Assembly (NCBI RefSeq): GCF_002160255.1
Contig: NZ_NFKF01000003.1
Span: forward strand, 1-64,000
Reading direction: 5' to 3'
From: Olsenella sp. An188
Lineage (GTDB): Bacteria > Actinomycetota > Coriobacteriia > Coriobacteriales > Atopobiaceae
Length of the DNA stretch: 64,000 nt
A program made the translations under genes and the position numbers. Positions within the stretch are counted from its first letter, which is position 1. Every line of letters starts with the position of its first letter. Below the pieces are notes generated by a model. The model saw only the letters and a program-made list of their open reading frames with translations, made no database searches and was not told the DNA's origin. Of the stretch, positions 16,737-24,254 are shown piece by piece.

Positions 16737-17480
16737 TTGAGGCAGGAGAGGGAGATAGTCGCTCGGGTCCGAGCGGCCAGGGATAGCGCCCGGGCCGCCG
16801 ACGCCCTGGTGCGCGACTACTTGCCGTTCATCAAGGCGGAGACGGCCAAGTTCATGGGCCGACCCCCGCGGGAGGGACACGACGACGAGCTGGGGATAGC
16901 CATGTTCGCGTTTCACGAGGCGGTGCTGGCATACGACAGGTCCAAGGGGGCCTTCCTTCCCCTTGCGTCGCTGAGTATAAGAAATCGCCTGATAGACTTC
17001 AGGCGGCGAGAGCGTCGCCACGCAGACGTGGACTCTCTCGACGAGCGGCGTGGCGGGGACGAGCTGGACCCGGGGCGGGCCCTCGTGGACGAGCTCGCCT
17101 CGGAGCGAGACGAGATTGCCGAGAGTGACGCACGCCGCGCGAGCAGGGAGGAGATTGCCGAGTTCGCGCGGCAGCTCGAGGGGCTCGGCATCGCCCTTAC
17201 CGACGTGGCGGAAAACTGCCCCCGTCAGCGCCGCACGCTCGAGGCGTGCCAGCGCGCCCTTGCGTATGCCCGCGAGGACCAGGCCCTTCTCGACCGGCTC
17301 GTAAAGACGGGGAAGCTGCCGATGTCGGACCTCGCGCGTGGGTCGGGCGTTGACCGCAAGACGCTCGAGCGCCATCGTCGCTACCTCGTGGCGCTGCTCG
17401 TTGCCTACACCAACGGCTACGAAATCATTCGCGGCCACCTTTGCAGGATCGTCTCCCCGGCGGGAGGTGACGCGAGATGA
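16737..17480 (+). CDS. sigI: RNA polymerase sigma factor, SigI-like
   Basis: This 247-residue alternative sigma factor resembles SigI of Firmicutes. It contains a sigma-70 region 2 (DALVRDYLPFIKAETAKFMG, then DELGIAMFAFHEAVLAYD and RNRLIDFRRRERR), a long linker and the SigI C-terminal DNA-binding region (ARGSGVDRKTLERHRRYLVALLVAYTNGYEIIRGHL). No ATG suits this frame; I chose TTG at 16737 because GGAGGGG precedes it by 5 bases and the length becomes normal. Its stop overlaps the start of the next gene (ATGA), an RsgI-like anti-sigma factor, which is the standard SigI-RsgI pairing. Confidence 0.85.
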   Translation: MRQEREIVARVRAARDSARAADALVRDYLPFIKAETAKFMGRPPREGHDDELGIAMFAFHEAVLAYDRSKGAFLPLASLSIRNRLIDFRRRERRHADVDSLDERRGGDELDPGRALVDELASERDEIAESDARRASREEIAEFARQLEGLGIALTDVAENCPRQRRTLEACQRALAYAREDQALLDRLVKTGKLPMSDLARGSGVDRKTLERHRRYLVALLVAYTNGYEIIRGHLCRIVSPAGGDAR

Positions 17481-18355
17481 GCTACCTGATCATGGAGTGC
17501 GCCGACAGCTACGCCGTGGCGCTCGACGAGGAGGGGCGTTTCGTCAAGGTCCCCAACCTCGGCTACGAGGTGGGGCAGCGCGTTGATGATGTCATCGTTT
17601 TTGATGACGATGCCGATGGGGCCGAGGTCATCCCCTTCAAGGCGCCGGCGCAAAGAAGGTCGCGCGGTCGGGTGGCTGCCGTCATCGCGGCCGCGGCGTG
17701 CCTGTGCGCGCTGTTCGTCGGGGGCTTTGCCCTGTGGCAGACGCCTGTTGGGACCGTTCGGATGAGCATCAACCCGGACGTGAGCATGGAGGTGAACCGC
17801 CTCGACCGCGTAGTGAGCCTCACGGGAGACAACGCGGACGGCGTCGAGCTGGCGGACGGCTTCTCGTACTACGGGCGCACGGTCGACGAGGTCTCCGACG
17901 ACCTTGCGACCCGCGCGGAGGGCATGGGGTTCCTTGCCGAGGGCGGGACAATCGAGCTGACGGTGGAGTCCGACGACGAGGAGTGGAGGGTGGCGACCGA
18001 GGACCGTCTTGTCGTGGAGCTTGAGGTCCACCTCGACAATCGCGTGAACGTGACGGGCTCGGCATCTGCTGGCGAGAAGGACGCGGACGACGGGGCGATT
18101 ACGGTTGACCAGGACATCGTCGTGGAGATTGCGCCGCCCGTGACGACGGCCGAGCCCGAGAAGACACAGCCCGAGGCGACGCAGCCCGAGGCGAGCACGC
18201 CGGCTCCGTCAGCTCCCTCGTCTCCGACCACGACCTACGACGATGATGACGATTGGGACGATGACGCCGACGACGGCTGGGACGACGATGACGACGCCGA
18301 CGACTGGGACGATGACGATGCCGACGACGGCTGGGACGAGGCCGACGACGACTAG
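17477..18355 (+). CDS. RsgI-like membrane anti-sigma factor with Trp/Asp-rich tail
   Basis: This 292-residue single-pass protein has a cytosolic N-terminal RsgI domain (residues 2-55, ECADSYAVALDEEGRFVKV), one membrane helix at about 66-88 and an extracytoplasmic domain at 92-200. That domain has the conserved Asn99-Pro100 in R-M-S-I-N-P-D, the position where RsgI proteins are known to self-cleave. A Thr/Pro linker leads to an acidic tail (228-292) of repeated DDWDDDAD-type units. It should hold SigI inactive and release it on an outside signal. The tail replaces the carbohydrate-binding modules seen on clostridial RsgI proteins. The tail ligand is unknown. Confidence 0.8.
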   Translation: MSYLIMECADSYAVALDEEGRFVKVPNLGYEVGQRVDDVIVFDDDADGAEVIPFKAPAQRRSRGRVAAVIAAAACLCALFVGGFALWQTPVGTVRMSINPDVSMEVNRLDRVVSLTGDNADGVELADGFSYYGRTVDEVSDDLATRAEGMGFLAEGGTIELTVESDDEEWRVATEDRLVVELEVHLDNRVNVTGSASAGEKDADDGAITVDQDIVVEIAPPVTTAEPEKTQPEATQPEASTPAPSAPSSPTTTYDDDDDWDDDADDGWDDDDDADDWDDDDADDGWDEADDD

Positions 18356-18484: not shown

Positions 18485-19465
18485 ATGAGGAACACGAGGA
18501 CGAGGGGCATCCTGGTCGCCGCAATCGCGGGCGCGGCTCTTGTTGCGACGCTGGGCGGATGTGGCGCCGCGGGGTCGGGCACCCAGCAGGGACAGGCGAC
18601 GCACGACGGGACCGCGCAGGTCCAGACGGCCGGAACGCTGCTTTTGAGCGTCAACCCGGAGATCGAGGTCGACTACGACGACCAGGGTCTTGTCACCGAG
18701 GTCGAGGGGGTCAACGACGACGGGCGAAGCGTGGTGGGAGACTACTCGGGATACGAGGGCCGGGAGGCTCGCGAGGTGGTCTCGGAGCTCGTGGGAGAGA
18801 TCTACCAGGACGGCTACTTCGACCAGACCGTTGACGGGCACGACCGAAACGTGGTGGTCAAGCTCGAGCAGGGATCGGCGTACCCGGGCGACGACTTCCT
18901 CCGGGGCATCGAGGACGACGTGCGCACGACGGTCAACGGATTTGGCCTTGAGTCCGACGCGCTCGCCGTGTCCACCGACCAGCTCGATGACCGCGGCTAC
19001 ATTGGTCTGGACGCCGCAAAGGACATCGTCCTCTCCCAGCTTGGCCTGACGGAGGCGACCTTCAACGATCACGAGTACGAGCTTGATGACGGCGTCTACG
19101 AGATGGGGTTCGTTGCGAACGGCGTCGAGTACGAGTATGAGGTCGACGCGCGCACGGGCAAGGTCCTTGAGGCGGACATCGACGGCAACGACGACTGGGA
19201 CGACGCGGACGACTGGGACGACTGGCGCGACAACAGCTATGACCGAGACGATGACGACCTCTACGACGACGCCGACGACCGTTGGGACGACGCTGACGAC
19301 CGGGACGACTGGGACGACGCGGACGACTGGGACGACGCGGACGACTGGGACGACGATGACGACTGGGACGATGCGGACGACGACTGGGATGACGACGCGG
19401 ACGACGACTGGGACGACGACGATGACGACTGGGACGACGACGATGACGACTGGGACGATGACTAG
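18485..19465 (+). CDS. Lipoprotein with RsgI-like domain, PepSY-like domain and Trp/Asp repeat tail
   Basis: This 326-residue product has a lipoprotein signal (lipobox L-G-G-C, Cys26). Residues 50-115 resemble the extracytoplasmic domain of the anti-sigma factor encoded upstream, including L-S-V-N57-P58-E, followed by a V-x-Y-D-D-Q-G-L-V strand. A PepSY-like domain (about 172-232, YIGLDAAKDIVLSQLGLTEA) follows. The last 95 residues are repeats of D-D-W-D-D-A-D, rich in Asp and Trp. Shared domain and tail with its neighbour suggest that it works with the SigI/RsgI system as co-sensor, decoy or regulon effector. This is inference; no described homologue comes to mind. Confidence 0.75.
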   Translation: MRNTRTRGILVAAIAGAALVATLGGCGAAGSGTQQGQATHDGTAQVQTAGTLLLSVNPEIEVDYDDQGLVTEVEGVNDDGRSVVGDYSGYEGREAREVVSELVGEIYQDGYFDQTVDGHDRNVVVKLEQGSAYPGDDFLRGIEDDVRTTVNGFGLESDALAVSTDQLDDRGYIGLDAAKDIVLSQLGLTEATFNDHEYELDDGVYEMGFVANGVEYEYEVDARTGKVLEADIDGNDDWDDADDWDDWRDNSYDRDDDDLYDDADDRWDDADDRDDWDDADDWDDADDWDDDDDWDDADDDWDDDADDDWDDDDDDWDDDDDDWDDD

Positions 19466-19763: not shown

Positions 19764-20510
19764 CTACAGGGCCACGCCCACCGCGACGAGTGCCGCGCAG
19801 GCCGCGAGCGCGCACCAGTCGCGCGCGACGAGCGGGTAGCGCTTGTAGCAGCTCTCGCGCGTGCGCAGGTAGAAGCCGCGCTGCTCGGCGGCGAGCGCGG
19901 TGGCGTCCGTCTTTCCGACGGAGCTCACCAGCAGCGGCACGCACAGCGGCAGCATGAGCCGCAGCTTGCGGAAGGGGTTGCGCGTGTCGTACTCCACGCC
20001 GCGGGCGGTCTGCGCCTCCATGATGGCGGTCATCTCCTGGCTGAACACCGGGACGAAGCGCAGCGCCGTGGTGAACGTGAACGCGTAGCGGTACGGCACG
20101 TGCAGCACCTCCACGCAGGCGTTGGCGAGGTCGCCCATCTTGGTCACGGAGAGCATCAAGATCAGCGGCATGGCCACGCCGAGCAGCCGCAGGCACGCCT
20201 TTGAGCCCGTGACCAGGCCGTCCGTGGTGACCCAGGCCGCGACCGGGGCGCCGGTGCGGACCACGGCGGTCTGGAGCGCGAGCATGATCACCGCCAGCGG
20301 CACCAGCACCTTGAGCAGCGACGCCAGCCTTCGCAGCGCCCCCGCGTACGCGCCGAGCGCCAGCGTCAGCACGATGAGGCCCACGAGCAGCGGGTAGGTG
20401 TCGGCTAGCAGCGTCGCCACGATCAGCGCGGCGGCGACGGCGAGCTTGGTCACGGGGTTCAGCCGGTGAAGCAGCGTGTTCCCGGGCACGTAGTCGATGA
20501 CGCTCGTCAC
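19764..20510 (-). CDS. ecfT: ECF transporter transmembrane (T) component
   Basis: This 248-residue membrane protein has about five helices. The coupling motif EAQTARGVEYD contains the first Ala-Arg-Gly of ECF T components, and AAEQRGF is the second. It links the paired ATPases to the substrate-specific S component. GTG start; the start overlaps the ATPase stop (GTGA). It is the last gene of the ECF operon read on the minus strand. Confidence 0.88.
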   Translation of the reverse strand: MTSVIDYVPGNTLLHRLNPVTKLAVAAALIVATLLADTYPLLVGLIVLTLALGAYAGALRRLASLLKVLVPLAVIMLALQTAVVRTGAPVAAWVTTDGLVTGSKACLRLLGVAMPLILMLSVTKMGDLANACVEVLHVPYRYAFTFTTALRFVPVFSQEMTAIMEAQTARGVEYDTRNPFRKLRLMLPLCVPLLVSSVGKTDATALAAEQRGFYLRTRESCYKRYPLVARDWCALAACAALVAVGVAL

Positions 20511-22303
20511 GGGCGCACCATCTCCTCAACAAGGTCGACGATCCCCGACACCTGGCTGATGCCGGCGAACTCCGCGGACGTGCTTCGCGCCAGCGCGCGG
20601 GAGAGCTGTGCCACCTGAGGCGCCTCGACGCTCGCAGCCGCCATGACGTCGGGCCGCGAGAAGACCTCCGCGGCGGGGCCGTCCGCGAGCACGCGCCCCC
20701 CGGCCATGACCACCACGCGCTCGGCAAAGTCCGAGACGACCTCCATGTCGTGGCAGACCATGATGACGGCGCAGCCGCGCTCGGCCATCTCGCGCACCGT
20801 CTCCATGACGGTCATGCACTCGCGGTAGTCGAGGCCGCTCGTGGGCTCGTCCAGCAGCACGACCTGCGGCTCCATCACCACCACGGAGGCGAGCGCCACC
20901 ATCTGCCGCTGCCCGCGCGACAGCGAGAAGGGCGACTCGCCCGCCGGCAGGCCAAAGCGCTCGGCCGCCGCGGCTGCCCGCCTGAGCGCCTCGTCGCCGT
21001 CGACGCCCTGGAGCTCAAGCCCAAAGGCCACCTCGTCGAGTACGGTGTCCTTGCAGAGCTGGCGGTCGGGGTTCTGGAAGAGGGTGGCCACATGCGCGGC
21101 GATGCGGCTCACGGGGACCTCGCGCGTGTCGATCCCGGCGACGCGCACCTCGCCGGACGCTGGGCGCAGCAGCCCGTTGAGGAGCTTGGTGAGGGTGGTC
21201 TTGCCGGCGCCGTTCTGCCCGACCACCCCCACGAGCTCGCCGGGTCGCACGGTGAGGCTCACGTGGGACACGCCGTCGCCGGACCCGGGGTAGGCAAAGC
21301 CGACGTCGCGCAGCTCCACCACGGGGGCGGGGACGGGCTCGGCCTGGCGGGGGACGGGCGCGTGCGGCGAGGCCTGCGAGGAGGTGGTGCCCGGGGCGGC
21401 GCCGCATGGCGCGGTGTCTGCCGCGGGCAGAGGCACTTCTCCCCGCCCGGCGAGAAGGCCCCGGATGAGCTCCTCGGCCTCGCCCACGCTGAGGCAGGGC
21501 GGGCCGGGCTCGATGACGCCGTGCTCGGCGAGGCTGTTTGAGACGCGCGCCACCCGGGGGCTGTCCACGCCCATGCGTCTGAGCTCGGAGCCGTGCGCGA
21601 AGACCTCGCGCGGGGTGCCGTCGAGCGCGAGGCGGCCGCCGTCCATCACGAGGACGCGGCTGCAGAACTCGGAGAGCAGGGCAACCTTCTGCTCTATGAC
21701 CACCACGGTTATGCCCTCGTCCCGGTTGAGCTGGGAGAGCGTCTGGAAGATGAGCTTGGAGCTGGCCGGGTCAAGCGCGGCGGTGGGCTCGTCGAGCACC
21801 AGGACGCGCGGGCGCAGGGCCAGGATCGCGGCCACGGCGACCTTCTGCTTCTGGCCGCCGGAGAGCGTGGCGATCTCTCGGTCGCGCAGCTCGGCGATGC
21901 CCACGGTCTCGAGCGCGCCGGAGAGCCGGCCCTCGACCTGGTCGTGGTCGACGCCGAAGTTCTCCAGGCCAAAGAGCAGCTCGTCCTCGACCACGGAGGC
22001 GACCATCTGGGCGTCGATGTCCTGCGTCACGCTTCCCACCGTGCGAGCGATGTCGGTGAGGCTGACCTCGCAGGTGTCGTGGCCGTCCACGAGGGCCGCG
22101 CCGTAGAGACGGCCGCGGTAGTGGTGCGGCACCGCGCCCGAGAGCACCGCGGCGAGCGTGGACTTGCCGGCTCCCGAGGGGCCGGTCACGCCCACGAACT
22201 CGCCGGGGAAGACCTCGAGCGAGATGCCGTCGAGGGCGCGCGCGTTCCGGTCCCCGTAGGAGAACGAGACGTCTTCGAGTCGGATGATGGCAGGCGAGCT
22301 CAT
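20507..22303 (-). CDS. ECF transporter duplicated ATPase (EcfA-EcfA' fusion)
   Basis: This 598-residue protein contains two complete ABC ATPase domains. The first is at residues 5-240 (Walker A G-P-S-G-A-G-K-S-T, signature L-S-G-G-Q-K-Q, Walker B L-V-L-D-E-P-T). The second is from about 330 (G-Q-N-G-A-G-K-T-T, then F-S-L-S-R-G-Q-R-Q and V-V-L-L-D-E-P-T). The linker is about 90 residues. ATPases of ECF importers normally work as a pair, here fused. Both sites look catalytically intact. Genes on each side encode the T and S components. Confidence 0.92.
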   Translation of the reverse strand: MSSPAIIRLEDVSFSYGDRNARALDGISLEVFPGEFVGVTGPSGAGKSTLAAVLSGAVPHHYRGRLYGAALVDGHDTCEVSLTDIARTVGSVTQDIDAQMVASVVEDELLFGLENFGVDHDQVEGRLSGALETVGIAELRDREIATLSGGQKQKVAVAAILALRPRVLVLDEPTAALDPASSKLIFQTLSQLNRDEGITVVVIEQKVALLSEFCSRVLVMDGGRLALDGTPREVFAHGSELRRMGVDSPRVARVSNSLAEHGVIEPGPPCLSVGEAEELIRGLLAGRGEVPLPAADTAPCGAAPGTTSSQASPHAPVPRQAEPVPAPVVELRDVGFAYPGSGDGVSHVSLTVRPGELVGVVGQNGAGKTTLTKLLNGLLRPASGEVRVAGIDTREVPVSRIAAHVATLFQNPDRQLCKDTVLDEVAFGLELQGVDGDEALRRAAAAAERFGLPAGESPFSLSRGQRQMVALASVVVMEPQVVLLDEPTSGLDYRECMTVMETVREMAERGCAVIMVCHDMEVVSDFAERVVVMAGGRVLADGPAAEVFSRPDVMAAASVEAPQVAQLSRALARSTSAEFAGISQVSGIVDLVEEMVRP

Positions 22304-22383: not shown

Positions 22384-22950
22384 CTAGTCGCTCAGGCCGA
22401 GCGCCTTGCGGATGGGCAGGTAGAGGGCGCTCACGAGGATGGCGTTGAAGACCGCGGTGAGCACCACCACGGGGAGCATCGCGGCGGCGAGCTCGGAGGC
22501 GGCGCCGACCATGGCGATGCGGATGAGCATGAAGACCGCGCCGGAGACCACGGTGGTGACGAAGGAGCCCACGAGCGGGACGAAGCGCTTGGCCGGGCCC
22601 TCGATGCCGGCGCGCACGATGACGGCCATGAGCATGGCGGCGATGCCCTCGGCCGCAAAGTCGACGAACGGCGAGGTGGTGGTGAGCTGGATGACGGCGG
22701 CGGAGATGAGGCCGATGATCAGGGCCTGGCCCACGTTGGGACGCACCACCAGGATGGTCAGGCAGAACGCGGAGATGATGAACTCGGGGCTGATGAGGCC
22801 GCCGGAGATGCTGGAGATCATGCGGCCCACGGTGAAGTTGAGGATGAAGCCGGCGGCCAGGAGCACGGCGAGAAGGACGAGGGCCTGGACGTCGAGCTTG
22901 CCGCGGTCGACGGAGACGACGGTGCGGGCGGCGGTGGTGTTCTCGGACAT
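22384..22950 (-). CDS. ECF transporter S component, probably tryptophan-specific
   Basis: This 188-residue membrane protein has about six hydrophobic segments (FILNFTVGRMISSISGG, FIISAFCLTILVVRPN, LIIGLISAAVIQLTTTSPF). The size and topology fit an ECF substrate-binding S component of the TrpP-like kind. It is the first structural gene after a leader peptide with three consecutive Trp codons and an attenuator hairpin. Tryptophan is therefore the most likely substrate, an inference from regulation rather than from residues in the protein. Confidence 0.75.
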   Translation of the reverse strand: MSENTTAARTVVSVDRGKLDVQALVLLAVLLAAGFILNFTVGRMISSISGGLISPEFIISAFCLTILVVRPNVGQALIIGLISAAVIQLTTTSPFVDFAAEGIAAMLMAVIVRAGIEGPAKRFVPLVGSFVTTVVSGAVFMLIRIAMVGAASELAAAMLPVVVLTAVFNAILVSALYLPIRKALGLSD

Positions 22951-23027
22951 GGTGAGTTCCTTTCGGTGAAGGTTTTGGCTGGAATGGTGCCTGGGGCGTC
23001 TTGCCTGCGTTCGATGGCTGCGCTACG

Positions 23028-23056
23028 AAAAAGGGCCCCCGGTCCTCCGGGAGCCC
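23028..23056 (-). terminator. Attenuator terminator of the ECF operon
   Basis: On the minus strand a 10-bp stem (23056-23047 with 23042-23033, one G-U pair) with an AGGA loop is followed by TTTTT. It lies 31 bases after the leader-peptide stop and about 80 bases before the S-component start. Confidence 0.8.
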
Positions 23057-23086
23057 CTCAGGCGCAAGAGGTATGGCGCGTGAGAC

Positions 23087-23167
23087 TCACCATCGACCGA
23101 GCGAGGAGAAGTTGCGCCACCACCAGTTCATGGACGTGCGTGCGTTGCGGACGACGGTCTTGGTCAT
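23087..23167 (-). CDS. Tryptophan leader peptide (26 residues, WWW)
   Basis: The peptide is encoded after a strong ribosome binding site (AGAGGAG) and includes N-W-W-W-R-N. Three consecutive TGG codons (TGG is the only Trp codon) are followed by the last codon, also Trp. The bases of the Trp codons (TGGCGC) can pair with GCGCCA just after the stop codon (23074-23079), as segment 1:2 of a classical attenuator. A terminator stem follows. This matches the known design of actinobacterial trp operon leaders (N-W-W-W), but here it precedes a transporter. Confidence 0.8.
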   Translation of the reverse strand: MTKTVVRNARTSMNWWWRNFSSLGRW

Positions 23168-23221
23168 GGTGTGCGCTCCTCTCATCGGTCTGCCGCGGGG
23201 CGGCGGTTGGTGTTGGTGGAC

Positions 23222-23250
23222 AAGATACGCGTCCGGGACGCGTCGCGCAA
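23222..23250 (-). promoter_or_regulatory. Promoter with palindrome upstream of the Trp leader
   Basis: On the minus strand TTGCGC (23250-23245), a 17-base spacer and TATCTT (23227-23222) form a good promoter. The spacer is nearly filled by an inverted repeat ACGCGTC-CGG-GACGCGT (23227-23243), a possible operator. Confidence 0.6.
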
Positions 23251-23462: not shown

Positions 23463-24254
23463 ATGAGCCTGCGCGAGAAGTACGGTGAGTGGGGCGTCAT
23501 CCTTGGTGCCACCGAGGGTGTCGGAAAGGCCTTCTGCGAGAAGATCGCGGCCGGTGGGATGAGCGTGGTGATGGTGGGCCGCCGCGAGGAGAAGCTTCGC
23601 GAGCTCGCCGCGCAGATCGAGGAGACCTATGGCGTCAAGACAAAGGTCGTGCGTGCGGACTTCTCGCAGCCGGATGCGGCCGAGACGGTCTTTGCCGCCA
23701 CCGAGGGCCTGGACATGGGCTTCATGAGCTACGTCGCCTGCCTGCACTCTTTTGGGAAGATTCAGGACACCCCGTGGGAGAAGCACGAGGCGATGATCAA
23801 CGTCAACGTCATCACCTTCATGAAGTGCTTCTACCACTACATGAAGATCTTCGCCGCCCAGGACCGCGGGGCCGTGATCAACGTCTCCTCCATGACGGGC
23901 GTCTCGAGCTCTCCGTGGAACGGGCAGTACGGCGCCGGCAAGGCCTACATCCTCAAGATGACCGAGGCCGTGGCCTGCGAGTGCGAGAACACCGGCGTGG
24001 ACGTCGAGGTCATCACGCTGGGAACCACGCTCACCCCAAGCCTGCTCTCCAACCTGCCGGGCGGCCCGCAGGGCGAGGCGGTCATGAAGATTGCCCAGAC
24101 GCCCGAGGAGGTTGTGGACGAGGCCTTCGAGAAGCTCGGCCGAGAGCTCTCCGTCATCGCAGGCGAGCGTAACAAGGCTTCCGTGCACGACTGGAAGGCC
24201 AACCACACCGAGGATGAGTACATTCGCTACATGGGTTCGTTCTATTCAAACTAG
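23463..24254 (+). CDS. SDR-family oxidoreductase
   Basis: This 263-residue classical short-chain dehydrogenase has the cofactor loop G-A-T-E-G-V-G-K. The R-R-E-E after the second strand (VVMVGRREEKLRE) favours NADPH. The catalytic Ser is in N-V-S-S-M-T-G and the Tyr-x3-Lys in Q-Y-G-A-G-K. The ATG at 23463 follows AGAGAGGAG. No pathway partners are adjacent, so the substrate is unknown; steroid and bile-acid dehydrogenases of this fold occur in gut Actinobacteria but nothing here identifies one. Confidence 0.85.
   Translation: MSLREKYGEWGVILGATEGVGKAFCEKIAAGGMSVVMVGRREEKLRELAAQIEETYGVKTKVVRADFSQPDAAETVFAATEGLDMGFMSYVACLHSFGKIQDTPWEKHEAMINVNVITFMKCFYHYMKIFAAQDRGAVINVSSMTGVSSSPWNGQYGAGKAYILKMTEAVACECENTGVDVEVITLGTTLTPSLLSNLPGGPQGEAVMKIAQTPEEVVDEAFEKLGRELSVIAGERNKASVHDWKANHTEDEYIRYMGSFYSN

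Follow-up and report, generated by a model that had tools for sequence, protein, structure and literature searches.

In Olsenella sp. An188, a group I ECF importer with its own dedicated module and tryptophan as its predicted substrate is very probably controlled by ribosome-mediated transcription attenuation. The window analysed here (the first 64,000 nucleotides of contig NZ_NFKF01000003.1, assembly GCF_002160255.1; G+C 67%) carries on its minus strand, in this order, a leader ORF, an intrinsic terminator, an S-component gene, a gene for a fused EcfAA' and a gene for EcfT (Table 1), and a Trp-codon attenuator acting on the importer is supported as the best reading of this locus. The parts of the attenuator, their conservation and covariation, the alternative folds, the TrpP homology of the S-component and the genome context were all computed.

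The components on which the original prediction had been built were recovered on the minus strand: a leader ORF of 26 sense codons (ATG at 23167-23165, TGA stop at 23089-23087) with its ribosome binding site and three consecutive TGG codons, a terminator stem (23059-23030) with five Ts (23032-23028) between the leader and the S-component gene, and complementarity between the Trp-codon region and bases 3' of the stop (segments 1 and 2, Table 1). A fourth Trp codon, directly before the leader stop, had not been mentioned there. The locus has two features by which attenuators are recognised: a short ORF that can be translated and bears consecutive codons for the regulating amino acid, and an intrinsic terminator ahead of the first structural gene. 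A simple consensus scan returned no promoter, and the same scan did not list the terminator; no covariance model of a T-box or other Rfam RNA matched the window at gathering scores.

Table 1. Positions of the leader, attenuator and importer features in the window, with the basis of each assignment
Feature	Positions	Strand	Basis or remark
Possible promoter, weak (TTGCGC, 17 nt, TATCTT)	23222..23250	minus	read by eye; conjectural
Ribosome binding site of leader ORF (GAGAGGAG)	23176..23183	minus	sequence; purine-rich, 8 nt 5' of ATG
Leader ORF (MTKTVVRNARTSMNWWWRNFSSLGRW, then stop)	23087..23167	minus	sequence; WWW leader in 64/70 family loci
Three consecutive Trp codons (predicted stall site)	23117..23125	minus	sequence
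Segment 1 (UGGCGC)	23114..23119	minus	pairs with 23079-23074 if no ribosome covers segment 1
Antiterminator outer 5' strand (CUCGGUCGA)	23093..23101	minus	inside last leader codons
Antiterminator inner 5' strand (GAGUCUC)	23082..23088	minus	overlaps stop codon
Segment 2 (GCGCCA)	23074..23079	minus	partner of segment 1
Intrinsic terminator (13-bp stem, loop AGGA, TTTTT)	23028..23059	minus	sequence; covariation
Antiterminator inner 3' strand (GGGGCUC), the terminator 5' arm	23051..23057	minus	
Antiterminator outer 3' strand (GACCGGG), the terminator loop and 3' arm	23038..23044	minus	
ECF S-component, TrpP family, predicted tryptophan carrier	22384..22950	minus	Pfam TrpP, relatives, AF2 model
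EcfAA', two fused ECF ATPases	20507..22303	minus	TIGR04520 441.9 bits, TIGR04521 415.2 bits
EcfT transmembrane coupling protein	19764..20510	minus	Pfam CbiQ 89.3 bits

In a protein search, 69 of the 140 family genomes and 190 of the 297 genomes sampled from the order had a match to the S-component. Among 70 S-component loci of the family (the An188 locus included, from 68 of the 69 matching genomes, with G068 left out), a leader ORF containing TGGTGGTGG lies no more than 420 nt upstream at 64, and in 61 of these 64 leaders the stop follows the first TGG at exactly 36 nt. Six family loci have no WWW leader (L055, L058, L043, L062, L063 and L070); at L055 the contig ends and L058 has two Trp codons only. 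L062 and L063 have kept a terminator with GACC, their WWW codons are gone and their genomes carry trpA; judged by sequence, the attenuator looks decayed in both. A set of named-record loci, 44 of 58 of which were examined (L165-L208, from genomes partly shared with the family set), gave a leader at 40; L204, L207 and L208 are without a WWW leader, and L200 offers just 36 nt of upstream sequence. L204 itself is an S-component fragment, 79% identical and leaderless, in a record labelled Lachnospiraceae, and might reflect misbinning or transfer.

Thirty Eggerthellaceae loci (L121-L150), picked from those with an S-component match (35–44% identity), were searched up to 1400 nt, and the WWW leader was absent from 28 of them; 20 Eggerthellaceae loci scanned against Rfam gave no family, and a loose scan for two nearby Trp codons returned some short ORFs in a few loci, which were judged unconvincing. 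The Eggerthellaceae S-components formed a separate clade (support 1.0) in a midpoint-rooted FastTree tree of 34 sequences, in which the leadered outliers L106, L107, L127 and L137 fell inside this clade (L120 was entered as leadered, with its label unchecked). The original prediction had held that relatives lacking the WWW codons would count against it; such relatives do exist, in these 28 loci and at L043, L062, L063 and L070.

A script called a hairpin and T-run in 63 of the 64 family leaders. Alignment and fold tests were run on 55 of the 56 distinct leaders obtained by merging identical rows, L069 (which has WWW codons but stops early and lacks the GGUC element) and L059 (no T-run found by the script) being left out. 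Across these 55 leaders the terminator is paired in 96.4% of cells, with 39 double-change cells distributed over 8 pairs, a value as high as which was reached by none of 500 shuffles. Segment 1 and segment 2 are paired in 88.5% of cells, compared with at most 53% when the pairing was slid. Because the leader is so frequent at the family loci and the terminator covaries in this way, its occurrence upstream of the S-component exceeds chance. A merely coincidental leader, with control of the importer residing in the promoter, might be argued from the relatives without a leader; it is extremely improbable in view of leader conservation and of the covariation of both terminator and antiterminator.

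The attenuator reading was borne out, although the antiterminator is not formed by the Trp-codon pairing that the original prediction had pointed to. It is a hairpin absent from that account, whose 5' strands are GGUCGA of the last leader codons and GAGUC at the stop; GGUC pairs with GACC of the terminator loop and 3' arm, and GAGUC with GGCUC of the terminator 5' arm. This antiterminator is paired in 87.8% of cells of the 55 importer leaders, as against 30–57% for slid versions, and its covariation within this set is marginal by the shuffle control because the antiterminator columns hardly vary there. Duplex energies compared with shuffles gave z < -2 in 49 of 53 importer leaders and z < -1 in 53/53 (median -3.4; L050 and L051 were unscored). 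In six further leader groups, which had not been used in framing the idea, z was below -1 in 62/68 and below -2 in 25/68 (no terminator was called for L261).

Leader classes, the others being taken from the RNA-model search or from fetched TrpB-like gene loci, covary at the same place, as GGUC/GACC, GGAC/GUCC and GGAU/AUCC (in full, CGGUCGA/UCGACCG, CGGACUGA/UCAGUCCG and CGGAUUA/UAAUCCG); these pair types come from predicted folds and so lean towards pairing, for which a permutation test served as control. In that test, which treats related sequences as independent, 77 distinct leader/terminator pairs had a mean energy of -11.5 kcal/mol with their own partners, stronger than 2000/2000 permutations (mean -9.1).

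Nascent and complete transcripts folded differently. In modelled nascent transcripts with a ribosome at the WWW codons (RNA masked up to a point 14 nt beyond where the third Trp codon begins), the inner helix was present in 54/55 leaders once the terminator 5' arm was out, and both helices in 55/55 once GACC was out; these counts carry no shuffle control, whereas the duplex z-scores do. When the terminator was forbidden, the best fold was the antiterminator hairpin in 54 of the 55. Full-length folding, on the other hand, gave no antiterminator: the terminator still formed in 50/55 complete transcripts with the ribosome at WWW, and it was better than the best alternative by a median of 7.3 kcal/mol. 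Since the terminator is favoured in full-length folds, the model implies that the switch, if switching occurs, must be kinetic. The mutual exclusion of antiterminator and terminator, with ribosome position choosing between them, is a finding of computation only (nascent folds and covariation).

We infer stalling, read-through and tryptophan transport in the following steps. With ample charged tRNA-Trp, the ribosome would pass UGGUGGUGG, reach the stop and cover GGUCGA...UGAGUC, upon which the terminator hairpin would form and transcription would end 5' of the S-component gene. With charged tRNA-Trp scarce, the ribosome would stall at the WWW codons, with GGUC 27 nt downstream of the first UGG; GAGUC would capture the emerging 5' arm of the terminator (GGCUC), GGUC would capture its loop and 3' arm (GACC), and the antiterminator hairpin so formed would allow read-through into S-EcfAA'-EcfT. 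If the leader went untranslated, the Trp-codon region would pair with GCGCCA, and the antiterminator strand, enclosed by this pairing, would leave termination as the favoured outcome.

The conserved spacing between the Trp codons and the stop, like the conserved C-terminal Gly-Arg/Gln residues, could also be expected of a TnaC-like leader peptide, that is, a nascent-chain sensor of free tryptophan working with no codon stalling. The conservation, however, is at the nucleotide level. The Gly codon bearing GGU is GGT in 54/55 importer leaders, while four window genes mostly use GGC for Gly (81/110, against 5/110 for GGT), and the codon after it varies (CGA 43, CAA 6, CAG 3, CTA 1, CGG 1 and TGA 1 in the 55 leaders). 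At L056 and L057 the ORF ends right after GGT and the RNA element is kept; in the NSS leaders L103 and L101 (the second one), the ORF runs for just three codons beyond WWW and CGGTCGATCG stands at an unchanged distance. With GGT almost invariant and the RNA element outlasting shortened ORFs, the constraint is on the RNA and not on the peptide; across importer and NSS leaders, no conservation of the C-terminus at the amino-acid level of the TnaC type was found. Sensing by the nascent chain is accordingly very unlikely.

The substrate of the S-component is predicted to be tryptophan. The protein matched Pfam TrpP (PF17099) with 20.3 bits (E 5e-4), below the gathering cut-off of 27.2; 47 of 57 aligned relatives matched the same model at E ≤ 0.01 (best 1.4e-13), and of ten relatives scanned singly against it, six scored above the cut-off, two below and two had no match. 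Its AF2 model exhibits the six helices of the S-fold (pLDDT 86.7), and its nine best Foldseek matches in the PDB are ECF S-components (probability 0.72–0.99, TM up to 0.62/0.70), with E-values of 0.1–1.4 and hence none at or below 0.001; no PDB chain was matched by the S-component profile at the sequence level. An AxxxA motif in helix 1 is a hallmark of ECF S-components, and A28 and A32 are invariant in 57/57 aligned sequences. EcfA, EcfA' and EcfT are encoded in the same operon, as in group I importers. Part of the family also carries a tandem second S-component of ~50% identity without a leader of its own (L013, L022, L033 and other loci).

WWW leaders were not confined to importer genes. 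They precede an NSS symporter gene in genus g70 (L101-L104), whose product belongs to the Pfam PF00209 (SNF) superfamily and has 4us3, which we take to be MhsT, as its best PDB sequence match; these symporters are an alternative WWW-leadered transporter of the g70 relatives and are not present in the window. Genes for TrpB-like enzymes (TIGR01415/NF009057) have 18 WWW and 5 WW leaders, in 23 of 40 fetched family loci (L252 and L254, where WW was judged intragenic, are excluded from this count), and a WWW leader was found at 11/11 such loci of the window's own genus. In one genome (G144), a single leader heads both a TrpB-like enzyme and an S-component. No WWW leader was seen in 18 fetched regions (16 around trpA and 2 around S-components), which may stop short of trpE. 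At E ≤ 0.001 a leader RNA model matched 150 of the 297 genomes of the order, a tally that is an overcount since the matches at L109, L110 and L113 are weak and look false; outside the order, the best match in a search of 396 genomes from the phylum had E 1.1e-5. The window's genome contains a second match to this model (E 9.8e-4).

Profile searches found no match to TrpA or TrpB in the genome to which the window belongs, and from this gene content this gut-type bacterium apparently cannot make tryptophan. The same searches were positive for TrpA and TrpB in 14/14 control genomes, TrpB mostly below its cut-off because the search also catches ordinary TrpB. Importer and TrpB were anticorrelated in the family (Fisher p = 5e-5), in the window's own genus (p = 0.02) and in the family without that genus (p = 8e-4), with a TrpB threshold set by hand and with eleven genomes whose TIGR01415 matches were weak or fragmentary counted as lacking TrpB; importer versus TrpA gave p = 0.01. 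Phylogeny is ignored in all these tests. Both importer and TrpB were present in 31 of the 140 family genomes and neither in 15. Within the genus, 10 of 11 genomes without the importer had a TrpB-like gene and the eleventh a fragment, compared with 9/20 of those with the importer, two others of which (G087 and G088) held fragments (G087:C1:899828-900238 and G088:C3:287114-287326).

Tryptophan as the substrate is supported because the S-component has TrpP homology, WWW leaders stand before TrpB-like and NSS genes, the genome gave no match to TrpA or TrpB and importer and TrpB are anticorrelated. The attenuator could be real and the importer serve a different aromatic or indolic substrate (indole, 5-hydroxytryptophan, kynurenine or anthranilate), easing tryptophan shortage indirectly; the shared leader in G144 would fit an indole-type precursor, and the tandem S-components under one leader might be read in the same way. 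Against this, with no TrpA or TrpB match in the An188 genome, indole and anthranilate could not be converted to tryptophan by the known route, and the S-component family matches TrpP, described in the accessible text of PMC13170310 as the one tryptophan importer that has been characterised in B. subtilis. A substrate other than tryptophan is thus unlikely.

We consider it reasonably probable that these leaders make up a tryptophan-starvation regulon extending across the Coriobacteriales, in which one class of WWW attenuator would act on the ECF-TrpP importer, the NSS symporter and the TrpB-like enzyme; in its unusual antiterminator, the loop and 3' arm of the terminator, together with the 5' arm, would be captured by leader codons set at a constant spacing from WWW, and importer and TrpB-like enzyme would replace each other under the same type of control.

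Attenuators of trp genes in Corynebacterium and Streptomyces are in print, and those in the accessible text of PMC1262725 have in common with the An188 leader two or three UGG codons, a GC-rich terminator with poly-U and an alternative antiterminator. They sit before biosynthesis operons or trpS, whereas the target in An188 is an importer, and their complementary triple gGCC-rGCy-GGCC, compared by eye, is not that of An188 (GGUC/GACC and GAGUC/GGCUC). The his attenuators of Firmicutes, with His-leader peptides, are likewise ribosome-mediated and were found by comparative genomics, but belong, in the part of PMC9413887 at hand, to histidine biosynthesis operons. Among S-protein genes deleted in B. 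subtilis was trpP, and tryptophan is named as an ECF substrate in the available sections of PMC11487621. The B. subtilis protein is of the same family (PF17099), the An188 protein scoring below the Pfam cut-off; as far as the accessible sources describe it, the TRAP protein represses trpP translation in B. subtilis, where one general ECF module serves the cell, in contrast to the leader-peptide attenuator and the dedicated module inside the operon in An188. In our survey of open-licence literature, no tryptophan attenuator was seen to be described ahead of an ECF importer, or in Coriobacteriia at all. Attenuators of trp genes have been published, and so, separately, has the place of TrpP among the ECF S proteins; the two in combination were not found.

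If the reading is true, leader-peptide attenuation extends from biosynthesis to import. It yields a directly testable tryptophan assignment for a large ECF S-component family of the Atopobiaceae and Coriobacteriaceae (in records named Thermophilibacter, Olsenella and Collinsella), and mutations could be used to disrupt the covarying antiterminator and to rebuild it. How gut bacteria are supplied with tryptophan is relevant to indole metabolism in the host.

Two features near the importer were seen in passing. The divergent neighbour (23463-24254, plus strand) matched the NCBIfam 7beta-hydroxysteroid dehydrogenase model NF050024 with 544 bits (cut-off 300), a bile-acid enzyme. Two adjacent ORFs close to the importer on the plus strand (17477-18355 and 18485-19465) encode long Asp/Trp-rich C-terminal repeats (DDDWDD...), which would cost much tryptophan.
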